Shown: positions 1 through 64,000, counted from the first letter of the stretch. The stretch is DNA of 64,000 nucleotides from Planctomycetota bacterium (GCA_018671175.1 JABHIE010000031.1:354128-418127); one strand, 5' to 3'. Made by a program: numbers and translations. Notes: generated by a model not told the origin, from the letters alone.

Positions 1-206
1 TCTCCGTCTGGCGCAAAACTGACTTTGGGCTCGCATTGCGCAGGAATGGCAATCGGCAGAACCGAGTCTGCGCGCATGCGGATTTCTGTTGCGTCGAAAG
101 TGGCATTTGCCTTATGAAAGACATACCAAGTTCCGCCACCGAGGGCGAGCGTAATCAAAAGGAGAGTGACACCGCACCCCGCAGCTATCTTTTTTCCAGC
201 AGTCAT
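1..206 (-). CDS. N-terminal part of a single-pass membrane or exported protein (cut by window edge)
   Basis: The reverse strand opens an ATG at 206 and stays open to the window edge, giving 68 codons. The protein starts MTAGKKIAAGCGVTLLL, so a short positively charged N-terminus is followed by a hydrophobic stretch at about residues 8-30, then a polar region. This fits a signal anchor or uncleaved signal peptide with an exported body. A TATACT hexamer lies 7 bases before the ATG and no Shine-Dalgarno is seen, so it fits the leaderless pattern found across the window. It is divergent from the thiC riboswitch. The family is not recognisable from the fragment. Confidence 0.62.
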   Translation of the reverse strand, partial: MTAGKKIAAGCGVTLLLITLALGGGTWYVFHKANATFDATEIRMRADSVLPIAIPAQCEPKVSFAPDG

Positions 207-213
207 GCGGAGA

Positions 214-219
214 AGTATA
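214..219 (-). promoter_or_regulatory. -10-like hexamer of the partial membrane protein gene
   Basis: The minus strand reads TATACT, ending 7 bases before the ATG at 206. If used, transcription would begin at or next to the start codon. No clear -35 box is visible. Confidence 0.4.
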
Positions 220-240
220 GGGAATCGGCCTATCGTGGCT

Positions 241-246
241 TATAGT
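241..246 (+). promoter_or_regulatory. -10-like hexamer for the thiC riboswitch transcript
   Basis: TATAGT here would place the transcription start near 252-254, exactly where the TPP aptamer begins. The spacing supports it; no good -35 is seen. Confidence 0.4.
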
Positions 247-251
247 GATGG

Positions 252-2709
<2,458 letters not shown>

Positions 2710-2726
<17 letters not shown>

Positions 2727-3198
2727 CGTTGGCTGGCGAAGCCGAAAAGCGAATGGCCGTTGCGTAGGCGATGGCCTCAACCGAACCCATCTTTTGTGCA
2801 CTTCCTGATATTTTGGAAGTCTCGATGCGCAGGTTTAAAAACAAATCGGCATCGGGTGCGGATTCAATCAAACGCAAAATGGCCTCGCGGCGAGCGCGAT
2901 CAAGTAAAGGCGCGTAACCACGCATTTCGCCGCCCACAAGTTTGCGTAGGCTGCTGGTGAAAACCTTGAAAGCATCGACAGCAATAACGACTGAGCCATG
3001 AACCAAGTGCGCTCGCTCAACAGGGCGCTCGTCATGTAGGTGCTTTGTCGTTACGACAGGTAGATTGCGGAAAGCCTGCTCGCGACGGTTGATGTCGCGG
3101 CAGTGCCTAGATTCTCTTTTCTTGCCAACAGCCCAGCCTAAAAGAATGAAAATGAATGAAAGGCTAAGTTGTATGCCAGTTGAAAGCGAGTGTTCCAA
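2710..3198 (-). CDS. YbjQ/UPF0145-like domain protein with N-terminal membrane anchor
   Basis: Residues after about 30 match the YbjQ (UPF0145, DUF74) fold, with a KLVGGEMRGYAPLL core like the KLVGGELRGYTELL of the neighbour upstream. In front is a hydrophobic segment (IQLSLSFIFILLGWAVG) that should anchor it. YbjQ proteins form pentameric shells and are loosely annotated as heavy-metal binding; the biochemical role is unknown. No ATG is available. A TTG at 3198 has GGAG 7 bases upstream, just before the stop of the preceding gene. A TTG at 3213 is the longer alternative. It sits between a soluble YbjQ gene and the M48 peptidase in one overlapping operon. Confidence 0.8.
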
Positions 3199-3202
3199 TA
3201 GC

Positions 3203-3517
3203 CTACTCCACAAGCACGGCCGTGCCGTAAACCATCATTTCAGAGGCGCCAGCCGCAACGGAAGATGTCGCGAAACGCACATTCACAATCGCGTTTGCTC
3301 CCAATTCAATAGCCTGTAGTTTCATGCGCTCAATCGCCTGAGCTCGCGATTCTTGCAATAGCTCGGTATAGCCACGGAGCTCACCGCCGACCAAATTCTT
3401 TAGGCCAGCTGCAAAATCACGCCCCACATGTTTTGCGCGAATACTAGAACCCTGCACCAAGCCGTAGTGCTCGACAATAGTTTTGCCAGGGATGCTCTCA
3501 ATGTTGGTTAACTGCAT
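3203..3517 (-). CDS. YbjQ family protein (UPF0145)
   Basis: The 104-residue product is a complete YbjQ protein: N-terminal IPGKTIVEHYGLVQGSSI, the family core KNLVGGELRGYTELL, and a C-terminal strand with YGTAVLV. The family forms small homo-oligomers with suggested metal binding but no proven reaction. It heads a three-gene operon with a membrane-anchored paralogue and an M48 peptidase. TAGAAT ends 6 bases before its ATG, mirroring the divergent trpS promoter. Confidence 0.93.
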   Translation of the reverse strand: MQLTNIESIPGKTIVEHYGLVQGSSIRAKHVGRDFAAGLKNLVGGELRGYTELLQESRAQAIERMKLQAIELGANAIVNVRFATSSVAAGASEMMVYGTAVLVE

Positions 3518-3523
3518 AACGGC

Positions 3524-3529
3524 ATTCTA
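3524..3529 (-). promoter_or_regulatory. TAGAAT -10 element of the ybjQ operon
   Basis: The minus strand reads TAGAAT, then 6 bases, then the ATG at 3517. There is no Shine-Dalgarno. Transcription would start at about the start codon. Confidence 0.55.
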
Positions 3530-3541
3530 CCTTCGCTCGTT

Positions 3542-3547
3542 TAGAAT
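3542..3547 (+). promoter_or_regulatory. TAGAAT -10 element of trpS
   Basis: TAGAAT is followed by 6 bases and the trpS ATG at 3554. It lies 12 bases from the opposing TAGAAT of ybjQ, so the 36-base divergent region holds two mirrored promoters. Confidence 0.55.
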
Positions 3548-3553
3548 GCGCGT

Positions 3554-4540
3554 ATGACCACCATCCTCAGCGGGATTCAGCCGAGCGGGACGCTTCACCT
3601 CGGTAATTACTTCGGTGCTATTCAGCAACACATCGCAATGCAAGAGCGCGATGCAGACTTGTTTTATTTCATCGCTGATTATCATGCGCTGACCACTTTG
3701 CGTGATGCCGCGGCATTGCGTGACAATGTTTTCGATGTTGCCGTTTCATATTTAGCTCTTGGCCTTGACCCTGAAAAGGTCGCACTCTTTCGCCAGTCTG
3801 ATGTGCCTGAGGTCACTGAGATTGCATGGCTGCTGGCTACGGTTACTGGCATGGGCTTGCTTGAGCGGGCGCATAGTTATAAAGACAAGGTCGCTCAAGG
3901 CATTAAGCCTAGCATTGGTTTATTTACTTACCCCATTTTGATGGCGGCTGACATTCTCGCTTACGATTCGGACATCGTCCCGGTCGGCAAAGACCAGGTC
4001 CAGCATGTCGAGATGACGCAAGACATGGCGACTCATTTCAACACGGCCTTCAAGTCAGAGGTTTTTCGCCGCCCCGAGTGGGAAATGGCTGCGACGACTT
4101 CCGCGCAGAAAGTGCCTGGGCTTGATGGCCAAAAGATGTCTAAATCATATGGCAACACCATCCCTATTTTTCTTGAGGGCAAGCCGCTTAAAAAATTGGT
4201 GAATCGTATTGTGACCGATTCGCGGCCACCCGAAGAGGCTAAAAACCCTGATGAGCTGTTTCTGTTTGATTTGCTCGCGCTCTTTTTAGACGCAAGCGAG
4301 TTGGCTGACTGGAAGTCGCAGGTCGCGGCTGGTGGCGAAGGTGCGCCAGGCTACGGTCACTTAAAAGCGCGCGTCCGCGAAGGGGTCGAAGAGCATTTTG
4401 CGGCAGCCCGTTTGCGGCGCACCGAACTAATCGCCAACCCTGACTATGTTGAGTCGGTTTTGGCCGCAGGTGCTGAAAAAGCTCGTTTGCGCGCTCGTTT
4501 AGTACGAGACCGTGCGCTTAAAGCTTGCGGTCTGCGCTAG
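3554..4540 (+). CDS. trpS: Tryptophanyl-tRNA synthetase
   Basis: A class Ic aminoacyl-tRNA synthetase that charges tRNA-Trp. The 328-residue length matches bacterial TrpS. The HIGH-like motif is TLHLGNYFG near residues 13-21 and the KMSKS loop is [10 protein letters not shown] at 192-201. The sequence between them includes the TrpS pattern [14 protein letters not shown]. It is divergent from the YbjQ operon and its last 23 bases overlap the convergent yidD gene. A TAGAAT hexamer 6 bases upstream and no ribosome site suggest a leaderless mRNA. Confidence 0.98.
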
Positions 4541-4799
4541 ATTCGCCGCATTCACAATCATCTTTTGCGAGGCATGACGGGTGCAGAGGCACTGGGTCAT
4601 AGCCACCTTTACAAAAGGGCTGGCACCGTAGCACTCGCCAAAGACCAAGCCAGAATCCAACCCAAGCCCCACGAGTCTTTAGAGCTTCAAGTGCGTAGCT
4701 TGAGCAGGTCGGGGTGAAACGGCATTTGCTTCCGCCCAGCATGGGGCTGATGAACTTCTGGTAGAAGCGCACAGGCAGAGCAAGCAAAGATGCAATCAT
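4518..4799 (-). CDS. yidD: Membrane protein insertion efficiency factor YidD
   Basis: A 93-residue protein with the family pattern: amphipathic N-terminus [27 protein letters not shown], and [14 protein letters not shown]. YidD sits at the inner face of the cytoplasmic membrane and helps YidC-dependent insertion. The start overlaps the rnpA stop by 4 bases, keeping the widespread rnpA-yidD coupling. The usual yidC partner is absent here: trpS converges on the 3' end instead. The tail after the conserved part ([15 protein letters not shown]) is acidic and not typical. Confidence 0.94.
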
Positions 4800-5227
4800 G
4801 TTGTGGTTGTATCGCTCTTGGCCGAGCGCGCGGCTTGCTGTTCCAGTTTACGAGCCCACTTCCGATCGATTTTCGGGATGAGTCTTATAAGCTCAGCTCT
4901 GACCTCAGGCATGGAATAGGCGTGCAACTTTTCGGCCACCGGGATCAGGATGTAATCCATGGCGGCTAATTCAGGTCGCAAGAGCCGAAAAGACTCTCGA
5001 AAACATCGCCGTGCACGATTGCGAATCACCGCTGACTTCGCATATTTTTTACTGACTGAGAGGCCAACTCGAGCGAAACCAGGAGAGCGGTCATTGTCTT
5101 TGGGTCGCTCTGCCGCAACGACTAAAATGAGCTGACCCCGAGCCCTCACGCCATGGCGATACACCCACGCAAAATCTTTCTGACTTTGCATGCGCGCTTG
5201 AGAGGGGAGGCGGAGGTTCTGACTCAT
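4796..5227 (-). CDS. rnpA: Ribonuclease P protein component
   Basis: RnpA binds the RNase P RNA and improves removal of 5' tRNA leaders. The 143-residue product begins [16 protein letters not shown], as in many RnpA proteins, and has the RNA-binding signature [20 protein letters not shown]. The start at 5227 is preferred over 5293 because it matches the family N-terminus and has AGGGG at 5237-5233. rpmH, normally upstream, is missing: a divergent gene starts at the very same CATG. It is translationally coupled to yidD. Confidence 0.95.
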
Positions 5228-5702
5228 GACAGCCCCTAAGCATAAACCGACGACGCCCGCGGCGGACTCTCGAGCCGTTTGGTTTGTGGGCACCGCCGAC
5301 CCTCAGGCCCTTGCGGCCAAAGAAATCTTGTCGATATGCAATGGCATATGGAGCGCCGAATCGTGTGCCGTCGCGCCAGTCGTCCTTGTGCATGAGCGCG
5401 CGCACACGCAACTCGTCCGCCGATTGCGCGAGCGGATGCCGTCCTTAGCCCCAGTGCTGGCGGCGACATTTTTGCATTCTTGGCTCGATGGGGGTGCAAC
5501 TCTCATTCAAGGTGGCTTAGATAGTGCTGATGGCGTCACTCCGGCGCTGCTCGTTAACCCTTCAGCCGATTCTTTGTGGCTGCGTCCTGACGCTCCGCGA
5601 GCCGCGGCTTTGCTCGTTCTTCGTGTTTCTGATCAGAAACACGCCGAATCCCTCCTTTCCTCCCTTGGCGCGACGGTTTTCCAAACGGCCCGATGGGGGT
5701 AG
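5226..5702 (+). CDS. Uncharacterised 158-residue protein divergent from rnpA
   Basis: I do not recognise this family. The product is soluble, Ala/Leu rich, with no signal peptide or membrane segment. It has blocks such as AVWFVGTADPQALAAKEIL at the N-terminus, a conserved-looking HERAHTQLVRRLRERMPSL middle, and a C-terminal strand-helix part (ALLVLRVSDQKHAESLLSSL). GGAGG at 5212-5216 lies 9 bases before the ATG, so translation is well supported. Its ATG and the rnpA ATG share CATG at 5225-5228. Its stop codon TAG forms the first half of the lat -10 element. Confidence 0.72.
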   Translation: MTAPKHKPTTPAADSRAVWFVGTADPQALAAKEILSICNGIWSAESCAVAPVVLVHERAHTQLVRRLRERMPSLAPVLAATFLHSWLDGGATLIQGGLDSADGVTPALLVNPSADSLWLRPDAPRAAALLVLRVSDQKHAESLLSSLGATVFQTARWG

Positions 5703-5705
5703 AAT
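5700..5705 (+). promoter_or_regulatory. TAGAAT -10 element of lat, overlapping the upstream stop codon
   Basis: The TAG stop of the upstream gene is the first half of TAGAAT. Six bases later is GTG at 5712, which supports GTG as the true lat start. Confidence 0.5.
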
Positions 5706-5711
5706 GACCCC

Positions 5712-7040
5712 GTGAACATGACTCTTAGCCCTAACGCTCCCATTGCTGCCACCGATGTGCACGAATCCCTTGGTAAGTGGATTCTCGTCGATGGCTACCC
5801 TTTCGTCCTTGACCTCGAAAATTCCAAAGGCGCTAAACTCGTCGATGCCCGCACGGGCCGCGAGTATTTAGACTTTTTTGGATGCTTCGGCTCGACACCA
5901 ATCGGCTGGAACCACCCCGCGCTATGCGATCAAGAGTGGCTCAACAAAGTGGCCACAGCGGTGATCAATAAGCCCGCCAACTCCGATCTCTACACTTGGC
6001 AAATGGCCGAGTTCGTCGAGGCCATCGGCAATGCTGCGATGCCTGAGGGCTTCAAGCACATGTTCTTTGTTGACGGCGGCGCGCTTGCTGTTGAAAATGC
6101 ACTAAAAGTTGCCTTCGACTGGAAGGTTCGGCGCAATCGCTCCAAAGGTGTCGATTCTGATGTGGGCCAATTAGTTATCCACTTCAAAAAGGCATTCCAC
6201 GGCCGCTCGGGCTATACGCTTTCCGTGACGAATACTTTGGTCGACAAAGTCGCTTACTTCCCTAAGTTTGACACTTGGCCGCGGGTCGATGCACCAGCTA
6301 TCGATTTTGATAACCCTGATGCCGTCCTTGAACTAGAAAAAGATTCACTTGCGCAAATCGATGCAGCCTTTGATCTGCACGGTGACGACATTGCTTGCAT
6401 CTTGATTGAGCCATTGCAGTGCGAGGGTGGCGACCGTCACTTCCGTCCTGAGTATTTGGCCGCACTCAAGTCGCGTTGCGAAAAGCACGATTGCTTGTTG
6501 ATCTTCGATGAGGTCCAAACGGGCTTCTTCGGTTCAGGCAAAACTTGGGCATGGCAAAACTATGGCGTTGAGCCAGATATTTTTGCTTTCGGCAAGAAGT
6601 CGCAGCAGTGCGGCATCATGGCCGGGCCGCGCATCGACGATGTGCCAGACAACTGCTTCCAGACATCTAGCCGCATTAATTCCACTTGGGGTGGCAACCT
6701 CGTTGACATGATGCGCGCCACCAAGGTGCTTGAAGTCATCGAAAACGATAACCTCGTGGCTAATGCTAGCCGTCAAGGCGAGCGCTGGATTACCGGCATG
6801 CGCGCGATTGCTGCAGATTTTGCCACAGTTACCAATGTGCGTGGTTTGGGTCTGATTATGGCCTTTGACATGCCTGATGGTGATTCGCGCAATGCTCTGC
6901 TTGGCGCCATGATGGAAGCCGGCATGATTGGCTTGAGTTCAGGTGAGCGTACGGTGCGGTTCCGTCCACACTTGGCGATTACCGATGCCGATACAGATCT
7001 TTGCCTTGAGCTAACCCGCAAGGCTTTGCAGGCTCTCTAA
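5712..7040 (+). CDS. lat: L-lysine 6-transaminase (class III PLP aminotransferase)
   Basis: LAT moves the epsilon-amino group of lysine to 2-oxoglutarate, giving allysine (2-aminoadipate 6-semialdehyde). The 442-residue protein shows LAT-type blocks rather than generic class III ones: DFFGCFGSTPIGWNHPAL near 54-71, the PLP-phosphate region DGGALAVENA at 121-130, DEVQTGFFGSGK at 266-277, and the Schiff-base lysine in FGKKSQQCG at 293-301. The start is GTG at 5712, 6 bases after TAGAAT; an ATG two codons on is the alternative. No lysine catabolic partner lies next to it. Family assignment is strong; substrate is inferred from family. Confidence 0.9.
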   Translation: MNMTLSPNAPIAATDVHESLGKWILVDGYPFVLDLENSKGAKLVDARTGREYLDFFGCFGSTPIGWNHPALCDQEWLNKVATAVINKPANSDLYTWQMAEFVEAIGNAAMPEGFKHMFFVDGGALAVENALKVAFDWKVRRNRSKGVDSDVGQLVIHFKKAFHGRSGYTLSVTNTLVDKVAYFPKFDTWPRVDAPAIDFDNPDAVLELEKDSLAQIDAAFDLHGDDIACILIEPLQCEGGDRHFRPEYLAALKSRCEKHDCLLIFDEVQTGFFGSGKTWAWQNYGVEPDIFAFGKKSQQCGIMAGPRIDDVPDNCFQTSSRINSTWGGNLVDMMRATKVLEVIENDNLVANASRQGERWITGMRAIAADFATVTNVRGLGLIMAFDMPDGDSRNALLGAMMEAGMIGLSSGERTVRFRPHLAITDADTDLCLELTRKALQAL

Positions 7041-10666: not shown

Positions 10667-10672
10667 AAGGGA

Positions 10673-10678
10673 ATCTTA
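10673..10678 (-). promoter_or_regulatory. TAAGAT -10 element overlapping the rlmN stop codon
   Basis: The minus strand reads TAAGAT, whose TAA is the rlmN stop. Six bases separate it from the ATG at 10666 of the large exported protein. Confidence 0.45.
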
Positions 10679-14317: not shown

Positions 14318-14328
14318 GCGAGAGTTTA

Positions 14329-19019: not shown

Positions 19020-19026
19020 TAGAATA
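19020..19026. promoter_or_regulatory. Overlapping divergent -10 elements for mnmG and the HEAT gene
   Basis: The plus strand reads TAGAAT at 19020-19025 (leader of about 32 bases to mnmG), and the minus strand reads TATTCT at 19026-19021, 7 bases from the GTG at 19013. The two hexamers share five positions, so RNA polymerase can open only one direction at a time if both are real. Confidence 0.35.
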
Positions 19027-21885: not shown

Positions 21886-21891
21886 ATTCTA
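21886..21891 (-). promoter_or_regulatory. TAGAAT -10 element of purC
   Basis: The minus strand reads TAGAAT, with 6 bases to the ATG at 21879. It mirrors the aroA element 13 bases away. Confidence 0.5.
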
Positions 21892-21904: not shown

Positions 21905-21910
21905 TAGAAT
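21905..21910 (+). promoter_or_regulatory. TAGAAT -10 element of aroA
   Basis: TAGAAT is followed by 6 bases and the aroA ATG at 21917. No Shine-Dalgarno is seen. Confidence 0.55.
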
Positions 21911-38047: not shown

Positions 38048-38053
38048 TAAACT
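38048..38053 (+). promoter_or_regulatory. TAAACT -10 element of the TolC-like gene
   Basis: TAAACT ends 8 bases before the ATG at 38062 in a 66-base intergenic gap with no Shine-Dalgarno, so the gene can have its own near-leaderless transcript. Confidence 0.4.
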
Positions 38054-40548: not shown

Positions 40549-42187
40549 GAAACGGCAATTTTACCCCTTATTGGGCAGTCTCTCGCTGGCCCTTCTCTTT
40601 TTCTTAGGGCTACCTTCTTGTGGGGGTGAGCCGGCTACGCCTTCGGTGGGCTTAAGTGCAGAGCAGATTCATCAGATCTGGGCTGTGCGTAAGAGCCTGC
40701 CCCTCTGGGAACCCCCGGCCAAAGATGAAATCTTGCGTCGAGATTTGTCTAAGTTGCAATCGGCTAGTAAGGCCTCTTTGAGACTTGCAACTGAGCGTTT
40801 GGTGCGGCAAGGGCAAGAAGTCGTCCCTCATCTCGAAAAAGAAATTGCTCTGCATGCTGTTGATCCTCGTGCGATGGCCTATCTCGTTAATTTGGCAAGC
40901 ACTCTGGCACAGGCCGGGTCTGCAGGCGATGGCGCCTCGCTCATTCGCGTTCTTGAGCATTCGCCTGTTGCCGTTGCGCGGACGGCCGCTCTTGACGCTT
41001 TGTCGGCGCTCGGAAGCCGAGAGCTTTTGCCCGCGATGCTTCAGCATGCAAAGAGAGAACCCGAACAAGCGCCCCTCCGAGTCGTTTACTCTTTGCTCGG
41101 TAAATGGGGTGATGAGCATGCGGCCCATTTCCTCACGGCGTCTGCCGCTGATTGGCTTGATGGGATTGAGACTTCAGGTAAGGGGCAAATGGCGTGGGCG
41201 AGCCTGCTTGAGCTGCGGCATCCTGTGGCGCAAGATTGGCTGTACCAGCGCCTTCCCTCTCTCGCGCCATCCTTGCGGATGCAGGCCTTGACGGCTCTGC
41301 TTGATCAAGGGGTACCTGATTTGCGCGATTCCGTTCGTGGCATGCTTGATGCGGGGCAATACCCGTCGGGGCGATTACGGGCTTTGGCCATCGCAGGCCT
41401 AGCTCAACTTCAAGACTGGCCGGGGATTTTGGCGGCAGCTAACGACCCCGACGAGTCGGTGCAGATGGCCATCGCCAAGGCACTTGCTTCGCCAGAGGCT
41501 GTGTCGGCTGCAGTCGGCTTAGATTATCTTGATGAGTTGTCTCGCCATCCTGTGCCTGAATTGCAATCGATGGCAATCAAAGCTCTCTTGGCTCACGGTC
41601 ATTCCGAGTCACTTGATTCATGGCTAAATCGTTTGCGGAAATATCCCAATGGGCAGGGTTCGGTTGCGTCTTTATTGATCTTGCGAGAAGACGGGATATC
41701 AGATCCGCGCTTTGCGCGCGTCCTCATCCCTCGATGGCCCTTTTGCGAAGACAATTTTCGAGTCGATCTGCTTCGCGCTTTAGTCTTCACTCAAGATCTC
41801 CAAGCCCTTCAGTTTTCGGCAAAAGTAGCGGCTGACTCAACTGAGAGCCTTTATGTGCGGCAGTCGGCTTTTATGAGTCTGGGCAGTTATGCACCAAAGA
41901 GTATCCCGCTTTTGCTGGGCTTGTGGTCTACTGATTTAGATGTGGTTCTCAAGACAACATTGGTGAACAGCTTGCTCTATGGTTTTGATCAGCCCGAGGT
42001 TCAAAACTTGCTGAAGCAAATCGCCAATGACCCGCAAACACATGATTCATTGCGCGCTCAACTTTATCGCGACTTTGTGCGATTGATGGGGGCGGATGCC
42101 CGTGCATATTTATACGGCATCCTGCAGAATGAGCCACGAAGTCAAATTCGAAGTTGGCTCAATGCGCTGTTGCACGAGTTTTTCTGA
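40520..42187 (+). CDS. HEAT-repeat lipoprotein
   Basis: From the ATG at 40520 (555 residues) the product has a basic N-terminus, a hydrophobic helix and a lipobox ending LGLPSC, so a lipid anchor is likely. The rest is made of alpha-helical HEAT repeats, for example ARTAALDALSALGSRELLPAML and ALAIAGLAQLQDWPGILAAA. GTG at 40538 is an alternative start that shortens the n-region. No catalytic motif is visible. It overlaps dusB divergently and ends 2 bases from the convergent UbiA-family gene. Confidence 0.78.
   Translation: MLLKSVVAVTKRQFYPLLGSLSLALLFFLGLPSCGGEPATPSVGLSAEQIHQIWAVRKSLPLWEPPAKDEILRRDLSKLQSASKASLRLATERLVRQGQEVVPHLEKEIALHAVDPRAMAYLVNLASTLAQAGSAGDGASLIRVLEHSPVAVARTAALDALSALGSRELLPAMLQHAKREPEQAPLRVVYSLLGKWGDEHAAHFLTASAADWLDGIETSGKGQMAWASLLELRHPVAQDWLYQRLPSLAPSLRMQALTALLDQGVPDLRDSVRGMLDAGQYPSGRLRALAIAGLAQLQDWPGILAAANDPDESVQMAIAKALASPEAVSAAVGLDYLDELSRHPVPELQSMAIKALLAHGHSESLDSWLNRLRKYPNGQGSVASLLILREDGISDPRFARVLIPRWPFCEDNFRVDLLRALVFTQDLQALQFSAKVAADSTESLYVRQSAFMSLGSYAPKSIPLLLGLWSTDLDVVLKTTLVNSLLYGFDQPEVQNLLKQIANDPQTHDSLRAQLYRDFVRLMGADARAYLYGILQNEPRSQIRSWLNALLHEFF
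40558..40563 (-). promoter_or_regulatory. TAAAAT -10 element of dusB
   Basis: The minus strand reads TAAAAT, 9 bases before the GTG at 40548. It lies inside the coding start of the divergent lipoprotein gene. Confidence 0.35.
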
Positions 42188-45943: not shown

Positions 45944-45949
45944 ATCATA
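45944..45949 (-). promoter_or_regulatory. TATGAT -10 element of dxr
   Basis: The minus strand reads TATGAT, 9 bases before the ATG at 45934. The 102-base region to the divergent subtilase gene also holds TAGACT at 45976-45981 on the plus strand, which would give that gene a leader of about 50 bases. Confidence 0.4.
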
Positions 45950-48039: not shown

Positions 48040-48045
48040 TAGAAT
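48040..48045 (+). promoter_or_regulatory. TAGAAT -10 element of the purM operon
   Basis: TAGAAT is followed by 7 bases and the purM ATG at 48053. No Shine-Dalgarno is visible. Confidence 0.5.
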
Positions 48046-49641: not shown

Positions 49642-49653
49642 CCTTGATAGACC

Positions 49654-53497: not shown

Positions 53498-53503
53498 AAA
53501 AAT

Positions 53504-53524: not shown

Positions 53525-53546
53525 AAGGGCTGAATCAGGACGGTGT

Positions 53547-55559: not shown

Positions 55560-55688
55560 GATTAGAGGCTGATGTAGGTGCGCCGTCGTATCGATGCAAA
55601 TAGTGTACCAACCGCTGGCCTAGTCAAACTTGGGTGAGTTGTCGCCTTTCGGTAACATCGCGTCAGGAAGAGGCGTAAATGCAACTTT

Positions 55689-56222
55689 CTAGGGTGTGCG
55701 CGTCTTAGGTAAGAATGCTTGTTTGAACATCAGGGTTGTCCATTCAATCTTAACCAGCAAAACAGGGCTCTGTGAGTCAACTTCTTTATAGACAAGCGTG
55801 TCCCAGACAACCCTTCCGTAGCGTTTGCCGGCAGATGGGTCAGCGCTGGCGATAGTTACTTCTGCGAAGATCCTGTCGTGAGGTCGCGCCGGTTGTAAGA
55901 ATTTTTCAGAACTAGACTCCAGTGCAAGGATATTTGGGCCAAGGAGCCCTTCTTCGTAAGCAAAGCCAGAGGCCATTGCCGCAAGCAGCGTTCCGTGCGC
56001 GATCGTTCCTCTAAAGGGCGTTTTCTTGGCAAATTCGGGGTCAAGGTGGATGGGGTTTTTATCCCCGGAGACATCGGCGTAGCGACGGATTAGCTCCATG
56101 GTCAGTGTTTTGCACGGGCTACGGAAGGCTTGACCAACTTTGAAGTCTTCAAAGGCGAGCTGTGGCTGAGGGGTGGTTTCAGAATTATGCACTTGTTTTC
56201 CACATTGTTTTCCACAATGCAA
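55689..56222 (-). CDS. MaoC-like dehydratase (hot-dog fold)
   Basis: A 177-residue single-domain hot-dog protein. The (R)-hydratase signature is readable as DVSGDKNPIHLDPEFA with catalytic Asp and His, followed by GTIAHGTLLAAMASGFA. Such enzymes hydrate enoyl-CoA or enoyl-ACP in fatty acid or polyester metabolism. The first 10 codons (MHCGKQCGKQ) come from a 12-base repeat, and GTG at 56192 is an alternative start that removes them. It is a single-gene unit between two small AT-rich gaps. Confidence 0.85.
   Translation of the reverse strand: MHCGKQCGKQVHNSETTPQPQLAFEDFKVGQAFRSPCKTLTMELIRRYADVSGDKNPIHLDPEFAKKTPFRGTIAHGTLLAAMASGFAYEEGLLGPNILALESSSEKFLQPARPHDRIFAEVTIASADPSAGKRYGRVVWDTLVYKEVDSQSPVLLVKIEWTTLMFKQAFLPKTRTP
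56193..56216. repeat. Tandem 12-base repeat with DnaA-box-like sequence
   Basis: TTGTTTTCCACA occurs twice in direct succession. TTTTCCACA differs from the DnaA box TTATCCACA at one position in each copy. The copies sit at the maoC start, next to the AT-rich gap 56223-56359. An origin is not claimed. Confidence 0.6.
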
Positions 56223-56359
56223 TCAACAATACCTTAGCAACGCCCTGATTTTTACGCAATAACAGGGCACATTCCGGCTTTCCCCGACAATCGACTTTAC
56301 ATAATAAATATTATCGGACGATGCGCATGGGCTAGAGATTCCCCCTCTTGACTTGTAAA

Positions 56360-57889
56360 TCACTCAGCGGGTTGCTCAGTGCTACCTGGGAGGACTTCTT
56401 TAGGCAAATACTTCGTCATATGGAAAGAGCCTGCCCTCCAGGTGCCGATGAGCAGGTCACCTACCCGAATTAGGGAAGTAGCTTCTTTTGGGACGCACTC
56501 AACCGATGCAGACTGGTCTTGATCTTGGGTGTGAACTCTTATCGGGCTGATCTCGGCGACCTTCGCCATCTGCGTGTTAGCCCCATCAGTAGCCGTCGCG
56601 GCGCCAGAGTTGATGGACACAGCTTTACGGATGCGCTCAAGGCCCTCGTCAGAAAAAGTTTCCAACCACTCTTCGAGTGGCATCCCTTGCTCGACGCAAA
56701 GCCACTTAAGAAAGGGCTGGTAAAGCGCCCAGCGTTGCTCGAAAACCTGTTCCTGAGGCGACTGAATGAGTTGGGTCGTTAGTTTGGCAACAATATGAGG
56801 CCCTGAAGACTGCGGAGTGATTCCATTTGCAAAGGACTTGATCTCTTGCAACTGAGATTCAGGAATAGGGTCGCTGGCTAAGTCAAATAGATAGGCATCT
56901 AAGAAATAGTTGGCGTCAACTAGGTCATCGAGTGGGCCAGCTTCCCCTTCGTCGGTTTGTTCTGGGTCAAGCTCGTCACTTACGCCAGGTGGCAGATTTA
57001 GCTGCGCCTCAAGCATGGCAAAGGCACCCTCGATACTGCCGCCCCGACATCGCAGTTGGTCGAATGCAGTCAGCGCATCAACTGTGCTGGACGAGTCTGT
57101 TGTCGGTAAAAGGGAAGCCGATGCAAGCGCAACTGCGATGCCGCTCTGGAGAGCCTCGAGGTCAATGTTGGACTCGAAGGCGAGTTGATCAATCAACTCT
57201 TGGGCACCATGCTCCTGAGCGATTTGACAGGCCTCTCGCCAGGACCAGCCTGGGAGTGCGTCAACCATGGCTTGAACCTTAAGAACTTGGTCGGTGCCGG
57301 TTGCGCCCGAGTCTGAACTTTGTTGCGCAAGTAAAAGCCGCTCGAGCTGCAGTTGAGAGAGGCACTCGCGAGGGTTCTCGCCTCGGATCCTGCAGATATC
57401 AGCATCAAGAGCAGCAATAAGCCCCTCTTGCATCATGGCTTGTGCACCAGGAAGGGGCTGATATAGGCCCTCTTCATTGAGTGCCAAGCGCCCCACTAGA
57501 AGGAAGTGAGTCGCCTGTGTATCTTCAAATTTAGGATAGGCGGTCTGGAAATTCTGGCCCGTCCAAGAATCAAGCAGCATGGCTTGGCCATTTTGCGCAC
57601 CATTTGGGCGAAAGAGGCCAAGGTTGGCATCTAGCAAGCGCGCCCAAGGTTCGTCGGCTTGAATACTCGCGGGAGCCCAAAAAACAGCTGGTGCTGCACC
57701 AAGGCTCGCTGATTCTCGTTCCAGGAGAAACCACTCTAAGAAGCGTGCCTCAGCACCTTCTTGGAGGCACCAAGGTTCTTGGCGGAGTGCTGATTCCCAC
57801 TCTTGAGTGAGTGCGGATTCGCTTTGAATTCTGGTTTGCAGCTCGTCTAGGAGCTGCAGCAGAGTTGCGTCAAAGGGGCTTTCGTGCAA
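56360..57889 (-). CDS. Uncharacterised acidic 509-residue protein
   Basis: I do not recognise this family. It has no signal peptide or membrane segment, is mostly helical and rich in Glu, Gln and Leu, with an N-terminal stretch MHESPFDATLLQLLDELQT and an FLKWLCVEQGMPLEEWLETF segment near residue 405. The C-terminal 60 residues look like a small beta domain (SLIRVGDLLIGTW). The start is TTG at 57889. No strong ribosome site is seen. It is divergent from the CvpA-like gene with a 29-base gap. Confidence 0.6.
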   Translation of the reverse strand: MHESPFDATLLQLLDELQTRIQSESALTQEWESALRQEPWCLQEGAEARFLEWFLLERESASLGAAPAVFWAPASIQADEPWARLLDANLGLFRPNGAQNGQAMLLDSWTGQNFQTAYPKFEDTQATHFLLVGRLALNEEGLYQPLPGAQAMMQEGLIAALDADICRIRGENPRECLSQLQLERLLLAQQSSDSGATGTDQVLKVQAMVDALPGWSWREACQIAQEHGAQELIDQLAFESNIDLEALQSGIAVALASASLLPTTDSSSTVDALTAFDQLRCRGGSIEGAFAMLEAQLNLPPGVSDELDPEQTDEGEAGPLDDLVDANYFLDAYLFDLASDPIPESQLQEIKSFANGITPQSSGPHIVAKLTTQLIQSPQEQVFEQRWALYQPFLKWLCVEQGMPLEEWLETFSDEGLERIRKAVSINSGAATATDGANTQMAKVAEISPIRVHTQDQDQSASVECVPKEATSLIRVGDLLIGTWRAGSFHMTKYLPKEVLPGSTEQPAE

Positions 57890-57906
57890 AAGATGTCTTG
57901 GTGTTT

Positions 57907-57912
57907 TAGAAT
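57907..57912 (+). promoter_or_regulatory. TAGAAT -10 element of the cvpA-like gene
   Basis: TAGAAT is followed by 6 bases and the ATG at 57919. Confidence 0.5.
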
Positions 57913-57918
57913 GGTGTA

Positions 57919-58467
57919 ATGGATCAAATCCACAATCTTGATTGGCTCGTTGCGGGCATCCTGGCCTATGGTGTCGTAGCGGGGATGGTGCGTGGCTTCT
58001 TACAACAGTTTACTCGCCTGTTTGCGTTGATTGGTGCCCTCCTTTTAGCCTCTTCCTGGAACCCGCTGACCCATTGGCTGGCTACCGTTTATTCTGATCA
58101 GGCAGAAATCTCTGGTCGAGTTCAGGCTGATGTTGAGCTACTCATTTTTCTTCTAGCCTTTGTGGCTTTGCTTTTGTTGAGGCGCACAATACTTGGTTGG
58201 CTTGGCTCCCCCGCCGGAGCTGACGCGCGTGCGGCTGGCGCTCTTAGCGGGCTAGTCGGTGTTGTTTTGCTTTCAAGCTTGGTGCTCGGTCACCAGAAGG
58301 CCCGAATGCCCCACGAAGATTTTTCGGAGTTATTTTTTACTCGTTACTTACATCGGCCAACGGTCGCTGCCCTGAGTTTGTTGCCGAGCTCTCTTGTTCC
58401 GAGCATTGTTTTTGAATCTGAGCATGACGAAAGCAGTCTGCCCGAAAACGAACCTCTCCTTCCGTAG
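57919..58467 (+). CDS. CvpA-family membrane protein
   Basis: A 182-residue inner membrane protein with four predicted helices and the CvpA opening pattern (NLDWLVAGILAYGVVAGMVRGFLQQ). CvpA proteins affect colicin V export and envelope integrity in enterobacteria; molecular function is unknown. The C-terminal 44 residues, soluble and acidic, overlap the convergent gene by 131 bases. Confidence 0.82.
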   Translation: MDQIHNLDWLVAGILAYGVVAGMVRGFLQQFTRLFALIGALLLASSWNPLTHWLATVYSDQAEISGRVQADVELLIFLLAFVALLLLRRTILGWLGSPAGADARAAGALSGLVGVVLLSSLVLGHQKARMPHEDFSELFFTRYLHRPTVAALSLLPSSLVPSIVFESEHDESSLPENEPLLP

Positions 58468-58978
58468 AGTGGTCGAGGGTATATTTTGCAAAAGAGTCAA
58501 CCCACTTTTTGCTAGGCAGACCCTTTCCAGAGTGAGAGACAACCAGAGATCCATCTTTCCAACTCGTTGTTAGCGGCTGCTCATCGGTGCCAGCTCGTGC
58601 GAGACACCAAAGACAAAGAGCTAAACTCGCTAGCGGCTGGGTGATGAGTGGAAGGTTTTCTTGCGCTTCCTCGGGCGTCCCGAGGCGGAGGGCTGCGGCA
58701 AGCAAAACACTTGGCGCTTCTCCTTTCTCGAGTCTCTCTAAAGTTGGTGGCTGATGGAGCATCGCGCGCAGCCAATCAAGCCGCCCCAAAAGAACCAAGT
58801 CTTCATCGAGTCTATTTTGCAGCTTGTTTTCTTCGCTAACTGGAACACCAACCATCGCCCAGCCCAAAATCAGACCACGTACCCCACGCAGGCGGTGGAG
58901 AGTTGCTCGCATTGCCTCGTTGAGCAGTGCAGCGAGCTCGGGGGAGCGATCGTAAAGAGAGGCGTTGGATGCTGACAT
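58337..58978 (-). CDS. Possible degenerate histidine-kinase/phosphotransferase-like protein
   Basis: A 213-residue soluble protein. The N-terminal helices (ELAALLNEAMRATLHRLRGVRGLILGW, LVLLGRLDWLRAMLHQPP) resemble a two-helix dimerisation domain. The C-terminal strand pattern (TSWKDGSLVVSHSGKGLPSKKWVDS) recalls a HATPase fold with the G-x-G turn but no clear N box or ATP lid. A ChpT-like role is a guess. Its last 43 codons overlap the convergent cvpA-like gene, so both frames are constrained. It starts 44 bases after tRNA-Leu. Confidence 0.5.
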   Translation of the reverse strand: MSASNASLYDRSPELAALLNEAMRATLHRLRGVRGLILGWAMVGVPVSEENKLQNRLDEDLVLLGRLDWLRAMLHQPPTLERLEKGEAPSVLLAAALRLGTPEEAQENLPLITQPLASLALCLWCLARAGTDEQPLTTSWKDGSLVVSHSGKGLPSKKWVDSFAKYTLDHSTEGEVRFRADCFRHAQIQKQCSEQESSATNSGQRPLADVSNE

Positions 58979-59022
58979 AGAATAGGTTTAGCAGGACAGG
59001 AGCATAGAAACAAGTTGTGCTG

Positions 59023-59109
59023 TGGTGCCGAAGGGGGGACTTGAACCCCCACTCCCTTGCGAGAAATGGATTTTGAATCCATCGCGTCTGCCGATTCCGC
59101 CACTTCGGC
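59023..59109 (-). tRNA. tRNA-Leu (anticodon CAA)
   Basis: The minus strand folds as a class II tRNA of 87 bases with encoded CCA. The acceptor GCCGAAG pairs with CTTCGGC, the D-arm is TGGCGGAATCGGCAGAC, the anticodon stem ATGGA/TCCAT encloses TTCAAAA (anticodon CAA), a long variable arm follows, and the T-arm GTGGGGGTTCAAGTCCCCC is complete. It reads UUG. Confidence 0.97.
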
Positions 59110-59125
59110 TACTACAGCGACGCAA

Positions 59126-59131
59126 AATATA
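59126..59131 (-). promoter_or_regulatory. Possible -10 element of tRNA-Leu
   Basis: TATATT on the minus strand lies 16 bases before the mature 5' end and just after the hairpin that closes the upstream gene. Confidence 0.35.
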
Positions 59132-59133
59132 GC

Positions 59134-59183
59134 AATGCGCCCCGCAAATCGGAGCATAAAAACTCCTTTTTGCGGGGCGCATT
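59134..59183 (-). terminator. Long hairpin between the beta-helix gene and tRNA-Leu
   Basis: AATGCGCCCCGCAAA at 59134-59148 pairs without mismatch with TTTGCGGGGCGCATT at 59169-59183, and GGAG/CTCC inside form a second stem. It lies 16 bases after the stop at 59199. The T-run after it is weak (GCTATATTTT), so termination is likely but not certain. Confidence 0.7.
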
Positions 59184-59198
59184 GAAGGAATGCTGGAT

Positions 59199-60749
59199 TT
59201 AGAGGATGTCCCCTACCAGAAGGGTGCTTAGTAATTCCGAAGTAAAGTCATAGGCTTGAACATAAACCTTTGAGCCTGTTAGACCTAGCGGCAGCCAAAG
59301 CGAGTTGGTCGCAGCCCCGAAGCCATCGGATGTAATGGTTGGCATGCGGATAATTGGCATTTCAAGTTGGACAATACCGTAACGCGTTAGCAAGGGCGCC
59401 GATCCTTGAAAGGATGCAGCGAAAGCAATTGGGCTATTCGCAACGCAACCTGTGACCGTAAACATTGCAAAATCGTCTGCGACAAGGTTTGTGCCACCTA
59501 AATCAGGAGCCAATACGGCGGGCGTAAAATTGACTAGCCCAAGCGAACTATCGTCGCTTCTATGAAGGATTTGCCCCTCAATTGCATTGTTGCTGGCAAG
59601 CGCCCAATAGTTACGACTCGCAGTTAGGTTGTCGTCGCAATGAATGAGTTGAATGCCACCGAGGTTATTCGCGACAAAATCATTGCAGTCGGCATCGGTT
59701 TGCCCACCAATTTGGAAGTCAATCGCCCAGCCCTGCATGCCAGGCATCTCTTCGCAAACAACACCCCAGTCAAGGTTGGTGAAGTTACTGCGTGAAACAT
59801 GGCCCCGTACATAATTGTGGTAGGAAGGGTCGACCTCAGTATTTGTGTATATCCCGACAGTGTTGGCGCGACCAAGACCATTAAAAGTATTGTCTTCGAA
59901 ATACCCTCGCCCGTTTGAGCCAAGGAAAGTAATGCCGGTTTCACAGTAGAGGAATTCACTTTCAGAAATTGTGACATCTGCATGAAGCACCTCAAGGCGT
60001 GCGCCTTCGCCGCAACGAGCAAAGCGATTGTTTGCCCAAATTAAATCAGCACCATTTTCTTTGCACGCAAATCCGATCATGGAAAGCATGAAAGTGCTTT
60101 CACTGCAGTTCACTTGAGCACCATTGTTGGCTCTTACCCCAGTAGCGCAACGCGTAGTGCTAATATCAGTAAGCTCAACTTGAGAGTCGCTAAAGGCAAA
60201 CCCATTGGCGAGCCCACTCAGATTGCCGTAGATATCTAAGGCACTTGTCTGAGCAACGGCGTGATTGACGCCCCCTACTATGGCGAGGCCTGTGTAAAAG
60301 TAATTCTTAATTTCACAACGAGTCACTTCGAGGCCATCAAAAGAACCGTAGCGATAGTCAGTAACAACGCCGTTGCGGCCATCTGCGCGGAGTGGGAAAC
60401 CAGGGTTGTTGCCATCGAAAACAAGACCATACAAGGTAACATCGTTAGCGCGAACTAAGCAGTTCGTTGAAGATGCCCCTAAATCTAAATTCGGTGCTGG
60501 CCCGCCGGGCGCAGAAGTCGTGGGCATAATCACAACCGAGCCTGGGTCGGTCGCGGCTAGAGTAAGAGACTTGTCAATAACAAGATCTTCAACATAAAGC
60601 CCAGGGGAAATGAGGATGACATCACCGTGGGAGGCCGCGTTAATAGCGTCTTGGATGGAACCAAAGGCGCCATTGCCGCCGTGGCCAGCAGTGAGGGTCG
60701 ATGCGATGAGGATGAGGGGAATAAGCATTGCAATGAGGGCTAAACCCAA
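59199..60749 (-). CDS. Exported right-handed beta-helix protein
   Basis: The 516-residue product begins with a hydrophobic signal (LIAMLIPLILIASTLTAG), then FGSIQDAINAASHGDVILISPGLYVEDLVIDKSLTL, the typical start of pectin-lyase-like beta helices. Repeats with DNxF, NxA and short hydrophobic turns run to about 410. The last 100 residues form a separate beta domain ending STLLVGDIL; similar C-terminal domains occur in secreted planctomycete-type proteins, so it may help anchoring or export (inference). Start is TTG at 60749 or ATG at 60728. TATGAT lies 5 bases before the TTG. Confidence 0.8.
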   Translation of the reverse strand: MGLALIAMLIPLILIASTLTAGHGGNGAFGSIQDAINAASHGDVILISPGLYVEDLVIDKSLTLAATDPGSVVIMPTTSAPGGPAPNLDLGASSTNCLVRANDVTLYGLVFDGNNPGFPLRADGRNGVVTDYRYGSFDGLEVTRCEIKNYFYTGLAIVGGVNHAVAQTSALDIYGNLSGLANGFAFSDSQVELTDISTTRCATGVRANNGAQVNCSESTFMLSMIGFACKENGADLIWANNRFARCGEGARLEVLHADVTISESEFLYCETGITFLGSNGRGYFEDNTFNGLGRANTVGIYTNTEVDPSYHNYVRGHVSRSNFTNLDWGVVCEEMPGMQGWAIDFQIGGQTDADCNDFVANNLGGIQLIHCDDNLTASRNYWALASNNAIEGQILHRSDDSSLGLVNFTPAVLAPDLGGTNLVADDFAMFTVTGCVANSPIAFAASFQGSAPLLTRYGIVQLEMPIIRMPTITSDGFGAATNSLWLPLGLTGSKVYVQAYDFTSELLSTLLVGDIL

Positions 60750-60860
60750 GATTTATCATAATGGAACTTCCTAGAAAGCGCCAATAGAAAATGTAAGCCA
60801 CTTAACGGAGAGCGTGTGGCCGTCGCCCAACCCCTTTGCCCGTAAGGAGTTGCAGGCGTT

Positions 60861-62249
60861 TTAGCCCGTTACGATTTGCCGCCCTTTGAGGGCCATATGT
60901 GCTGTATTCGTCTCTAAATCAGTGGGGGAAAGGCAAATCGAAGATTCTAGCTCAAAAGGGCCTGAGCCAGGGAGGTCGTCAAAACGACCTGAATTTGCAG
61001 CCCATTGTAAATTGCGATGGCTTAAATCTTTGCGTGAAGTCACGATAGAGTCGTGGCCAGACCGATTTTTAAGGGGTGAAAACTCGTCCTGTCGAGTTGC
61101 GAGCTGCACAACAGTGCGCTCGGCGAGAGCCAGCGCGTCAAAGACGAAAGACTCAAACTTAACACCTTGATTTTCAGTGAGGCTGTCTTGCCCGTGCAGG
61201 GCCAAAATCTGCTTATGCGCAAGGTGGAGAGGTAGTTGCGCTTCGGCCATTTCTTGAACGAAGTCAAGTGCGAAAGCATGAATCGCAATGTTGCCCGCCC
61301 GAAATAGAAGCCCCCCATCAGGTGCCCGCTCAGAGCAAAGGTCTTGGGGCATGTCGGAATACTCGATACAAAGTGTTCGTTTGTCGCGGCAAACGAGAAG
61401 CCCAACCTTTTCGGACGGCTCAACCTTTTCAACAACTTTGGCAGACATCTGTGCATCAGCCAATAAGTGTTGGCCAAGGAAGACAGGGTCGCCAATAAGC
61501 GCAAGAGGGTTGTCGACCTGGCAGTAATAGAGTGTGCTTACTCCATGATCTTTAAGCTTTGTTAAAGCTCCACTCGATTTGAGTGCTCGATAAAAACCGC
61601 CATGGCCATCAGGGTTGCGGAAGAGGCGGTCTGGTGCAGCCAAAAGCAGTTGACCCTCAGGGCTCAATGCTGGAAGTGTGCCTTGGCAGGCAAAGTGAAT
61701 GCTGGAAGAACCTAAACCAAACCAATTGCGCTTAGCGAAAAACTCTTTTGTCTCTAAGTCGTTGCCTGGGCCTGTCTGAATCACCCAGTGAACTTCAGCC
61801 TGTGCTAATTCACGAAGCCGTTTAATCTGCCCTGCAAAAATCTGGAATAAACTGGCGCCAGAAATGGGGCTGAGCGGAAAAGCACCCTTCGGGCCATCAA
61901 AACCAAGTCGTGAAGCTTGACCGCCTGCAACAGTCGCAATCGCAATGTCGCCAGACCTATAGGCATCCCAGGCGCACTCTTGTGCGGTCGCCTGGGATGC
62001 CGAAGCTGGCAAGGACGGGGGGTGGAGGTCAGGCGGAGTCAGGCCAGAAACATCGGTTTGAGCGGGGAGCTCGAGCGCGCGTTGCTGCTGCTCAAGAACA
62101 CCAAAGTCAATGGTGGCTAAATCTTGGAGGAACGTAGCTTTTGATGACCCTCTCAGCTTATGGAAAGCTTCAAGTGCCAAGATGAGGCCGCGTTCCTCGA
62201 GAGCCCCGAGGATGGAGCTTTCAGACAAATTAATCTTGACCGTCGCCAA
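60861..62249 (-). CDS. UAP1-type UDP-sugar pyrophosphorylase (probable UDP-GlcNAc pyrophosphorylase)
   Basis: A 462-residue UDPGP-family nucleotidyltransferase of the eukaryote-like type, not GlmU. The UTP-binding signature is AGGQASRLGFDGPKGAFPL; further blocks are PDGHGGFYRAL (compare PNGNGGxY) and YYCQVDNPLALIGDP. UAP1 makes UDP-GlcNAc from GlcNAc-1-phosphate; UDP-glucose or galactose specificity cannot be excluded. It overlaps the preceding small gene by 20 bases and ends the acpP-fabF operon. Confidence 0.88.
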   Translation of the reverse strand: MATVKINLSESSILGALEERGLILALEAFHKLRGSSKATFLQDLATIDFGVLEQQQRALELPAQTDVSGLTPPDLHPPSLPASASQATAQECAWDAYRSGDIAIATVAGGQASRLGFDGPKGAFPLSPISGASLFQIFAGQIKRLRELAQAEVHWVIQTGPGNDLETKEFFAKRNWFGLGSSSIHFACQGTLPALSPEGQLLLAAPDRLFRNPDGHGGFYRALKSSGALTKLKDHGVSTLYYCQVDNPLALIGDPVFLGQHLLADAQMSAKVVEKVEPSEKVGLLVCRDKRTLCIEYSDMPQDLCSERAPDGGLLFRAGNIAIHAFALDFVQEMAEAQLPLHLAHKQILALHGQDSLTENQGVKFESFVFDALALAERTVVQLATRQDEFSPLKNRSGHDSIVTSRKDLSHRNLQWAANSGRFDDLPGSGPFELESSICLSPTDLETNTAHMALKGRQIVTG

Positions 62250-62562
62250 TCTTGTCGAGCGCCTCTTCCATGAGGTCGACGAGGAGGGCTAGCTTCCGCT
62301 CGAGCAGAAGCTCGCGGCGAGTAATCTTTTCGACAATCGGAGGAAGGAGTGCCTCAAGAACATAATTGTTAATCATGTTGATGATCTCTGCGCGGTCAGC
62401 ATCGACCAACTTGTGAAAGTGGAAGTGGTAAGCGTTATCTAGGACATCTTGAGAAAAGGCCATTGACTCTTCAGTCAGGGACTTGAGCTCGCTAGGGTCG
62501 TGCTCAACTTTGTAGACATCTTTACGATAAGTCTTGAGTGCTTCTGCGAATTTTTGTTTCAC
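62230..62562 (-). CDS. Small helical uncharacterised protein in the fab operon
   Basis: The 110-residue product is fully alpha-helical and charged (KTYRKDVYKVEHDPSELKSL, RRELLLERKLALLVDLMEEAL), with no membrane segment. No family is recognised. It lies 16 bases after fabF and overlaps the pyrophosphorylase gene by 20 bases, so it is co-expressed and may bind one of these products. Confidence 0.7.
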   Translation of the reverse strand: MKQKFAEALKTYRKDVYKVEHDPSELKSLTEESMAFSQDVLDNAYHFHFHKLVDADRAEIINMINNYVLEALLPPIVEKITRRELLLERKLALLVDLMEEALDKIGDGQD

Positions 62563-62578
62563 GGGGATGTGTGTGGGG

Positions 62579-63841
62579 CTAGTCGAACTTGCGGAAGGCT
62601 AGACAAACATTGTGCCCACCGAAGCCGAGAGAATTGGAGAGGGCAGCTCTGAAATTGCTTTCGCGAGGCCCATCAGGGATGTAATCCAAGTCGCAACCTG
62701 CCTCAAGGTCAGGATTTTCAAGGTTGCGTGTTTGGTGAGCAACGCCGCGGTATAGCGTGAAGGCCGTGACAACGGCTTCAACAGCTGCGGCCGCACCAAT
62801 GAGGTGACCCGTCATGGACTTTGTCGATGAAATCGCAATCTGTCGCGCAGCTGTTTCACCGAGCGCCATCTTGAGAGACAGGGTCTCGATGCGGTCATTC
62901 ATCTGGGTGGAAGTGCCGTGGGCATTGACATAGTCAATCTCGTCGGCATTGAGCCCCCCATCTTGAATGGCCATGCGCATGGCTGCGGAAGGCATTTCGC
63001 CGCTTGGGTCGGGTGCGGTGATGTGGCCAGCATCATCGGTTTGGCCAAAGCCAGCGAGCTCGCAATAAATGGTTGCGCCACGCGCTTTTGCGTGCTCAAG
63101 CTCTTCAATGACGAGAGCGCCTGCGCCTTCGCCCATGACAAAACCATTGCGCTCGACATCGAATGGGCGGGAAGCCTCTTCGGGGCGGTCATTCCAGGTG
63201 GATAGTGCTTTGAGCTGCATAAAGCCAGCCATGGTGAGAGGATTGGTCGTCGTCTCTGCCCCACCGGTCATCATGACATCCGCGCGGCCATCACGAATTT
63301 CTCGCATGGCCATGCCAATCGCGTGCCCGCTGGATGCGCAGGCAGATGAGGTCAGGAAGCAAGCGCCCTTAAGCCCGTGTTCAATCGCAATATTACCAGC
63401 CAAAGCATTGGCCATCGTATTGGGAATAAAGAAAGGAGTAACGCGTCGAGGGCCTTTTTCTTTAAGGACCTCGTGGTAATCCAAAATGGTCTGGATACCG
63501 CCAATACCTGTGCCCAAGATCGCACCCGCACGCATGGGGTCGAAAGCGCCTTCTGTGAGGCCAGAATCAGTCCATGCCTCTCGCGCCGCAACAACACCAA
63601 CTTGACTAAACCAATCTTGGCGCTTGAGCTCTTTACGAGAGAAGTGGTCTTCGGGGATATAGGTCAGGTTGCGGACTTCTCCTGCAATGCGGGTAGACCA
63701 ATCTTGGTTTTCCCAACGATCAAGGACGCGTACGCCGCTCTTAGCAGCGAGCATCGCCTCGAAACTAGCAGAAGCACCACAGGCCAGAGGCGTAAGCGCC
63801 CCTAGCCCCGTGATGACGACCCGGCGTTTGGCCTCGGTCAT
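62579..63841 (-). CDS. fabF: 3-oxoacyl-ACP synthase II (FabF)
   Basis: Condensing enzyme of fatty acid elongation. From the ATG at 63841 (420 residues) the Cys-His-His triad is Cys168 in TSSACASSG, His308 in NAHGTSTQMND and His346 in KSMTGHLIGAA, with Lys341. It starts 15 bases after acpP, the usual acpP-fabF order. The longer frame to 63856 overlaps that gap only. Confidence 0.97.
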   Translation of the reverse strand: MTEAKRRVVITGLGALTPLACGASASFEAMLAAKSGVRVLDRWENQDWSTRIAGEVRNLTYIPEDHFSRKELKRQDWFSQVGVVAAREAWTDSGLTEGAFDPMRAGAILGTGIGGIQTILDYHEVLKEKGPRRVTPFFIPNTMANALAGNIAIEHGLKGACFLTSSACASSGHAIGMAMREIRDGRADVMMTGGAETTTNPLTMAGFMQLKALSTWNDRPEEASRPFDVERNGFVMGEGAGALVIEELEHAKARGATIYCELAGFGQTDDAGHITAPDPSGEMPSAAMRMAIQDGGLNADEIDYVNAHGTSTQMNDRIETLSLKMALGETAARQIAISSTKSMTGHLIGAAAAVEAVVTAFTLYRGVAHQTRNLENPDLEAGCDLDYIPDGPRESNFRAALSNSLGFGGHNVCLAFRKFD

Positions 63842-63856
63842 AGCGACTCGACCCAA

Positions 63857-64000
63857 CTAGACGTTGAGCTTCTTGCCGATGTAATCAATTGCGCTGCCGA
63901 CAGTCATGATGTGCTCTGCATCTTCGTCGGGGATAGTGATATCAAAAGCACTTTCGAATTCCATGACGAGCTCAACTGTGTCGAGGCTATCGGCACCGAG
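63857..64000 (-). CDS. acpP: Acyl carrier protein, C-terminal part (cut by window edge)
   Basis: The minus strand stays open from the edge and gives [16 protein letters not shown], with the phosphopantetheine serine in DSL, then [23 protein letters not shown] and the stop. Only the last 47 residues are visible. It is upstream of fabF. Confidence 0.95.

Follow-up and report, generated by a model that had tools for sequence, protein, structure and literature searches.

Putative leaderless promoters with a TANNNT hexamer at a fixed distance from the start codon in a Planctomycetota genome

In a stretch of 64,000 nucleotides (nt) from Planctomycetota bacterium (bases 354128-418127, contig 23; GCA_018671175.1, JABHIE010000031.1), hereafter called the window, a hexamer resembling TAGAAT ends 6 to 9 bases before the start codon of many genes. 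This raises the question whether the hexamer is the −10 element of promoters that place the first base of the transcript at the start codon, and whether leaderless transcription is accordingly widespread, as an original prediction made for the window had claimed. In the analysis described here, the hexamer is read as the −10 element of sigma-70-type promoters that probably (with a probability of about 0.87) yield leaderless or near-leaderless mRNAs in around a quarter of the genes. The genome has a size of 2.39 Mb in 36 contigs and is ~89% complete, and the G+C content of the window is 54%. The closest named relatives, as judged by PurC, are uncultured Planctomycetota known as metagenome-assembled genomes. 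A 16S rRNA gene was not detectable in the genome bin.

Position of the hexamer upstream of start codons

For the positional analysis, genes were called in 858 kb of the genome (first sample) using a simple home-made codon-usage finder that is blind to promoters. The start of the longest ATG/GTG open reading frame (ORF) was taken as a motif-independent start codon, upstream of which TANNNT was then counted. The spacer is defined as the number of bases between the end of the hexamer and the start codon (N6 for a spacer of 6). At spacer 6, the hexamer was found for 45 of 323 first genes, compared to approximately 4 per other position. For spacers 5-9, the sum was 83 genes, whereas shuffled sequences gave a mean of 21 and a maximum of 35. 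The analysis restricted to divergent genes is informative, since an upstream stop codon cannot interfere there; 34 of these genes carry the hexamer at spacer 6 versus 2.5 per position (Poisson p = 2e-26).

A genome-wide TANNNT count had been named as a check of the original prediction, with the lack of a positional peak as the refuting outcome; this outcome did not occur. The sharp N6 peak was repeated in a held-out set of 390 kb of contigs unused before (14 versus 1.4, p = 4e-10), by which the total sample reached about half of the genome, and in the relatives G004, G009, G034 and G047, with spacer-6 counts of 7, 7, 7 and 4, respectively, versus at most 1. In 250 kb of Escherichia coli K-12, analyzed with the same pipeline as a control, a spacer-6 peak was not seen (2 versus 2.4).

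Thirteen sites in the window had been listed as examples, and all 13 hexamers were found at the spacing and on the strand given for them. The leaderless posterior is taken from the mixture model described in the following section.

214..219, minus strand: TATACT of a partial gene, N7 before ATG 206, posterior 0.81
3524..3529, minus strand: predicted −10 hexamer TAGAAT of ybjQ, N6 before ATG 3517, leaderless posterior 0.99
3542..3547, plus strand: predicted −10 hexamer TAGAAT of trpS, N6 before ATG 3554, posterior 0.99, facing the ybjQ hexamer
5700..5705, plus strand: TAGAAT of lat, N6 before GTG 5712, its TAG also being the stop of ORF 5472-5702
10673..10678, minus strand: TAAGAT of the gene for a large exported protein, N6 before ATG 10666, its TAA being the stop of the upstream same-strand gene
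19021..19026, minus strand: TATTCT of a HEAT gene, N7 before a possible GTG 19013, start assignment uncertain
21886..21891, minus strand: predicted −10 hexamer TAGAAT of purC, N6 before ATG 21879
21905..21910, plus strand: predicted −10 hexamer TAGAAT of aroA, N6 before ATG 21917
38048..38053, plus strand: TAAACT of a tolC-like OEP gene, N8 before ATG 38062
40558..40563, minus strand: TAAAAT of dusB, N9 before GTG 40548
45944..45949, minus strand: TATGAT of dxr, N9 before start 45934, start assignment uncertain
48040..48045, plus strand: predicted −10 hexamer TAGAAT of purM, N7 before ATG 48053
57907..57912, plus strand: predicted −10 hexamer TAGAAT of a cvpA-like gene, N6 before ATG 57919

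Nine of the sites are straightforward and have a high leaderless posterior (partial gene at 206, ybjQ, trpS, purC, aroA, tolC, dusB, purM and cvpA), and four are complicated. The lat gene (5712) and the gene for the exported protein (10666) had been counted among the first genes of transcription units; this status is not clear, as a same-strand ORF ends 9 bases before each of them. For the ORF preceding lat (5472-5702), no Pfam match was obtained, so lat may still be a first gene. For the HEAT gene and dxr, the hexamers are present and the choice of the start is uncertain, with the coding model favouring starts 228 and 138 nt further in, respectively. Same-strand neighbours are located 66 nt upstream of tolC and 33 nt upstream of purM. 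Between the start codons of ybjQ and trpS there are 36 bp.

A thiamine pyrophosphate (TPP) riboswitch (Rfam RF00059, 69.8 bits) was identified at positions 249-344 of the window, directly upstream of thiC (334-1971). This gene, which is transcribed divergently from the partial gene at 206, is clearly leadered, beside genes predicted to be leaderless. The true thiC start may be located later, because the riboswitch match overlaps the longest ORF by 11 bases at its start.

Gene classes and conservation in relatives

The genes were assigned to classes by a three-way unsupervised mixture (promoter, Shine-Dalgarno (SD) or neither), in which the start codon was also picked by the model. The promoter class has the motif T-A-G/A-A-A/C-T, a spacer of 6 in 51% and a weight of 0.25. 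For the SD class, a GAGG-like motif with a spacer of ~7 and a weight of 0.19 was determined. Of in-frame decoy codons inside genes, only 4% received a leaderless call.

The classes segregate by gene context. By hard calls, 82 of 194 divergent genes (42%) are leaderless and 14 carry an SD site, whereas 45 leaderless and 82 SD genes were found among 299 same-strand genes with a gap below 25 (82:14 versus 45:82, Fisher p = 2e-14). The anti-SD sequence ACCTCC is retained at the 3′ end of the 16S rRNA in 11 relatives, and therefore the leaderless and the SD mode can coexist. The coexistence of two initiation modes, which had been part of the original prediction, is supported by these data, with SD sites concentrated in tightly packed operon genes. 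The split is statistical and not absolute. Two observations weigh against a clean separation and limit the account of two modes: internal genes also have a spacer-6 peak, although a smaller one (20), and the remaining 56% of the genes have neither the −10 hexamer at the start nor an SD site.

For the analysis of conservation, reciprocal best orthologues were aligned at the start codon. TANNNT at spacer 5-9 was retained in 19 of 61 orthologue pairs of the leaderless class versus 10 of 181 others (p = 1e-6, with kinship ignored). Mixture fits on 100-200 kb of the relatives overfit, with inflated weights, so only positional counts are given for these genomes. Of 19 family genomes, 18 have TANNNT upstream of aroA at spacer 6-8, mostly as TAGAAT-N6, a count that is somewhat inflated since the start picker favoured starts with the hexamer. 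For purC, TARAAT-N5/6-ATG was found in five named relatives, in one case on a contig with 75% G+C. The spacer of 9 at dusB is retained in four genera (relatives G009, G047, G050), and TANNNT at spacer 7-8 was identified for purM in the relatives G009 and G047. The trpS hexamer is not retained in G004 and G041, the only two relatives with alignable starts.

The gene mcsB was located in 25 genomes of the Planctomycetota family under study. Where it lies directly behind another gene (gap below 10), the hexamer was found in 0 of 8 cases. Elsewhere, it was identified at spacer 5-9 in 15 of 17 cases and at spacer 11 in the remaining two. The p-value of this contrast is 4e-5, whereby the eight operon-internal cases represent two genera and are not independent. 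The pattern is accounted for by a putative promoter and not by a translation signal.

These data bear on the alternative that the hexamer is an element acting at the level of translation, namely a stretch that is rich in AT, unstructured or bound by S1, within mRNAs having 5′ leaders. An AT-rich bias at −20 to −10 was indeed read as translation-level in other low-SD phyla (PMC5397173). In the present genome, however, a specific T-A-x-x-x-T dominated by a single spacer is seen and not a diffuse AT bias, and internal genes are under-represented in the leaderless class relative to the SD class. Moreover, the hexamer is missing exactly at the tightly operon-internal mcsB genes, which would still require an element for translation. 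A role in translation is thus considered very unlikely, although it is the best of the alternatives to a −10 promoter element.

Possible shared symmetric cores and stop-codon fusions

Among 99 divergent pairs of the first sample, 23 were called leaderless on both sides, and in several of these the start codons are 18-25 bp apart and the hexamers overlap. The held-out set adds two close divergent pairs (22 and 26 bp), and the geometry of overlapping hexamers was found at about 8 loci overall. In the E. coli control, 0 of 27 divergent pairs were found within 45 bp.

The divergent pair of a K-channel gene and mcsB contains a 10-mer, ATTCTACAAT, that is shared without any change by five genera (L172, L178, L184, L185, L191), while its flanks diverge. 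The start codon of each side is 6-9 bases away from this core, and the two start codons are 22-26 bp apart. At purC/aroA, the facing TAGAAT hexamers are separated by 13 bp in the window and are fused into the palindrome ATTCTAGAAT in two relatives (L206, L208).

When searched for by pattern alone, symmetric two-start elements were not enriched (6 versus 3.9 in shuffled sequences); the bidirectional case therefore rests on gene context and on the conservation at mcsB. Exact N6/N6 symmetric matches in the present genome amount to seven versus 0 control hits, which adds weak support. A further candidate for the bidirectional form, at mutS2/cysteine synthase, was rejected, as it is not conserved in relatives.

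The second layout concerns same-strand genes at a gap of exactly 9. Here, a T completes TA(A/G)NNT in 8 of 13 cases of the first sample, 4 of 5 cases of the held-out set and 7 of 10 cases in relatives. This results in a total of 19 out of 28 versus a background of 25% (p = 2e-6), in which the relatives may include orthologues. In the window, lat and the gene for the large exported protein belong to this type.

The two layouts were combined in one joint proposal, by which the leaderless promoters of this Planctomycetota family would be condensed into minimal genetic units, and whose chances we regard as evenly balanced. According to its first part, a single symmetric 10-bp −10 core (ATTCTACAAT, ATTCTAGAAT) would drive two divergent leaderless genes with starts 22-26 bp apart, the whole intergenic region being one promoter read both ways. 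According to the second part, a TAA or TAG stop codon at a gap of exactly 9 would at the same time supply bases 1-3 of the −10 element of the following gene.

For symmetric bidirectional promoters of E. coli, a spacing of 18 bp between divergent transcription start sites (TSS) has been described, besides spacings of 10 and 23 bp (Warman and colleagues, PMC12825309). The proposed shared cores are similar in that one −10 core is read both ways, with a spacing near the 23-bp class. For E. coli, only the TSS spacing is given, whereas here transcription appears to begin at both start codons, with an intergenic region of 22-26 bp.

The palindromic forms could also be operators of a global regulator and not promoter elements at all, as they are perfect or near-perfect palindromes occurring at purC-aroA in two genomes and at mcsB in five. 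This is highly improbable, since most instances are single, strand-oriented hexamers linked to one start codon, and since the halves are separate in other genera, where each of them holds the distance to its own start codon like two promoters.

Proposed mechanism and comparison to known leaderless systems

Motif, spacing, gene context and conservation were observed directly, and from these we infer that the hexamer is a promoter element. A sigma-70-type −10 element at a fixed distance would set the start of RNA polymerase at or within ~3 nt of the start codon. Judged by this distance, the first base of the transcript would be that of the start codon for a spacer of 6, which agrees with the canonical distance between −10 and +1, and would be found within ~3 nt for spacers of 7-9. 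The resulting leaderless mRNA would be translated without Shine-Dalgarno contact. The first genes of transcription units would use the leaderless mode most, and packed operon genes would use SD sites or stop-start overlaps. The positional peak, the gene context and the conservation in orthologues thus support the predicted widespread leaderless transcription at the level of sequence.

Besides the inflated aroA count, several observations weigh against this mechanism. A TTGACA-like −35 element was not clearly enriched at a spacer of 15-19 upstream of the −10 hexamer; in Deinococcus, a −10 motif alone next to the ORF was reported to be sufficient (PMC12340547). No specific initiator signature was identified at the start base, and C at position −1 occurs just as often in the other classes. 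The depletion of TTG starts was not significant in confident leaderless calls, and spacers of 8-9 could leave leaders of 1-3 nt.

Leaderless genes with TANNNT ~12 bp upstream of the start were described for 207 of 953 bacterial genomes, with a share of ~19% of the genes in Actinobacteria and ~39% in Deinococcus-Thermus (Zheng et al., 2011; PMC3160421). The same hexamer, its position, the coexistence with SD sites and a similar gene fraction were found here. In contrast to that study, the present genome prefers a G at position 3 (TAGAAT), and Planctomycetes are unnamed in the text of the paper. Deinococcus-Thermus shares the −10 element beside the ORF, a weak or absent −35 region and leaderless mRNA with the classical mode alongside (PMC12340547). 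These features were experimentally tested there, whereas the present genome is known from sequence alone; bidirectional or divergent use is unmentioned in the text of PMC12340547. According to predictions by GeneMarkS-2, 21.6% of bacterial species have leaderless transcription, as cited in PMC9581028. In 2017, one planctomycete was described as low-SD, and its upstream bias was attributed to leaderless mRNA and/or S1 (PMC5397173).

In the literature searched, no transcript-start mapping and no study by differential RNA sequencing (dRNA-seq) were found for Planctomycetota. For Mycobacterium tuberculosis, a study of the leaderless transcriptome reportedly mapped extensive leaderless mRNA by RNA-seq, with a TANNNT −10 motif and both ATG and GTG starts. 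The TANNNT −10 motif is like that of the present genome, in a different phylum and with RNA-seq mapping.

The leaderless mode with a −10 signature is already known in bacteria, and there are about even odds that the shared-core and stop-fusion layouts are new variants of it. Should transcript mapping be in agreement, much of the Planctomycetota would be added to the bacteria in which leaderless mRNA is made routinely, with consequences for gene-start annotation and promoter prediction in this phylum. The shared-core and stop-codon layouts would be simple cases of two genes competing for, or coupled via, one ten-base promoter.

Raw genome-wide pattern counts were also tried and were replaced by gene-based and in-phase tests. 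They are misleading in A+T-richer genomes such as the present one, because the reversed-pattern and N14 controls are located in other reading frames than N6. That the peak reflects chance and annotation bias, with starts chosen for a preceding TANNNT, could be argued from 4 of the 13 listed sites with TA from a stop codon or an uncertain start and from raw TANNNT-N6-ATG counts near the N14 counts in the present genome, but this has a negligible probability, since the peak is present with motif-independent starts, the held-out contigs refute the argument, E. coli is blank under the same pipeline, and the likeness of the raw counts is a reading-frame effect (180 for N6 versus an in-phase spacing average of 116). 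Raw counts carry no information where the pattern is common by chance, as in the present genome, and there the gene-based test is the only one that works.

Across the phylum, 119 Planctomycetota genomes were sampled, and in 43 of them, from 26 of 66 families, raw counts of TANNNT-N6-ATG surpass those of TANNNT-N14-ATG by a factor above 1.5. The motif is otherwise rare in these genomes. This excess is conservative, because the frame difference between N6 and N14 disfavours N6.

Apart from these features, tRNA-Leu (CAA), located at 59023-59109 on the minus strand, is the only tRNA of the window.

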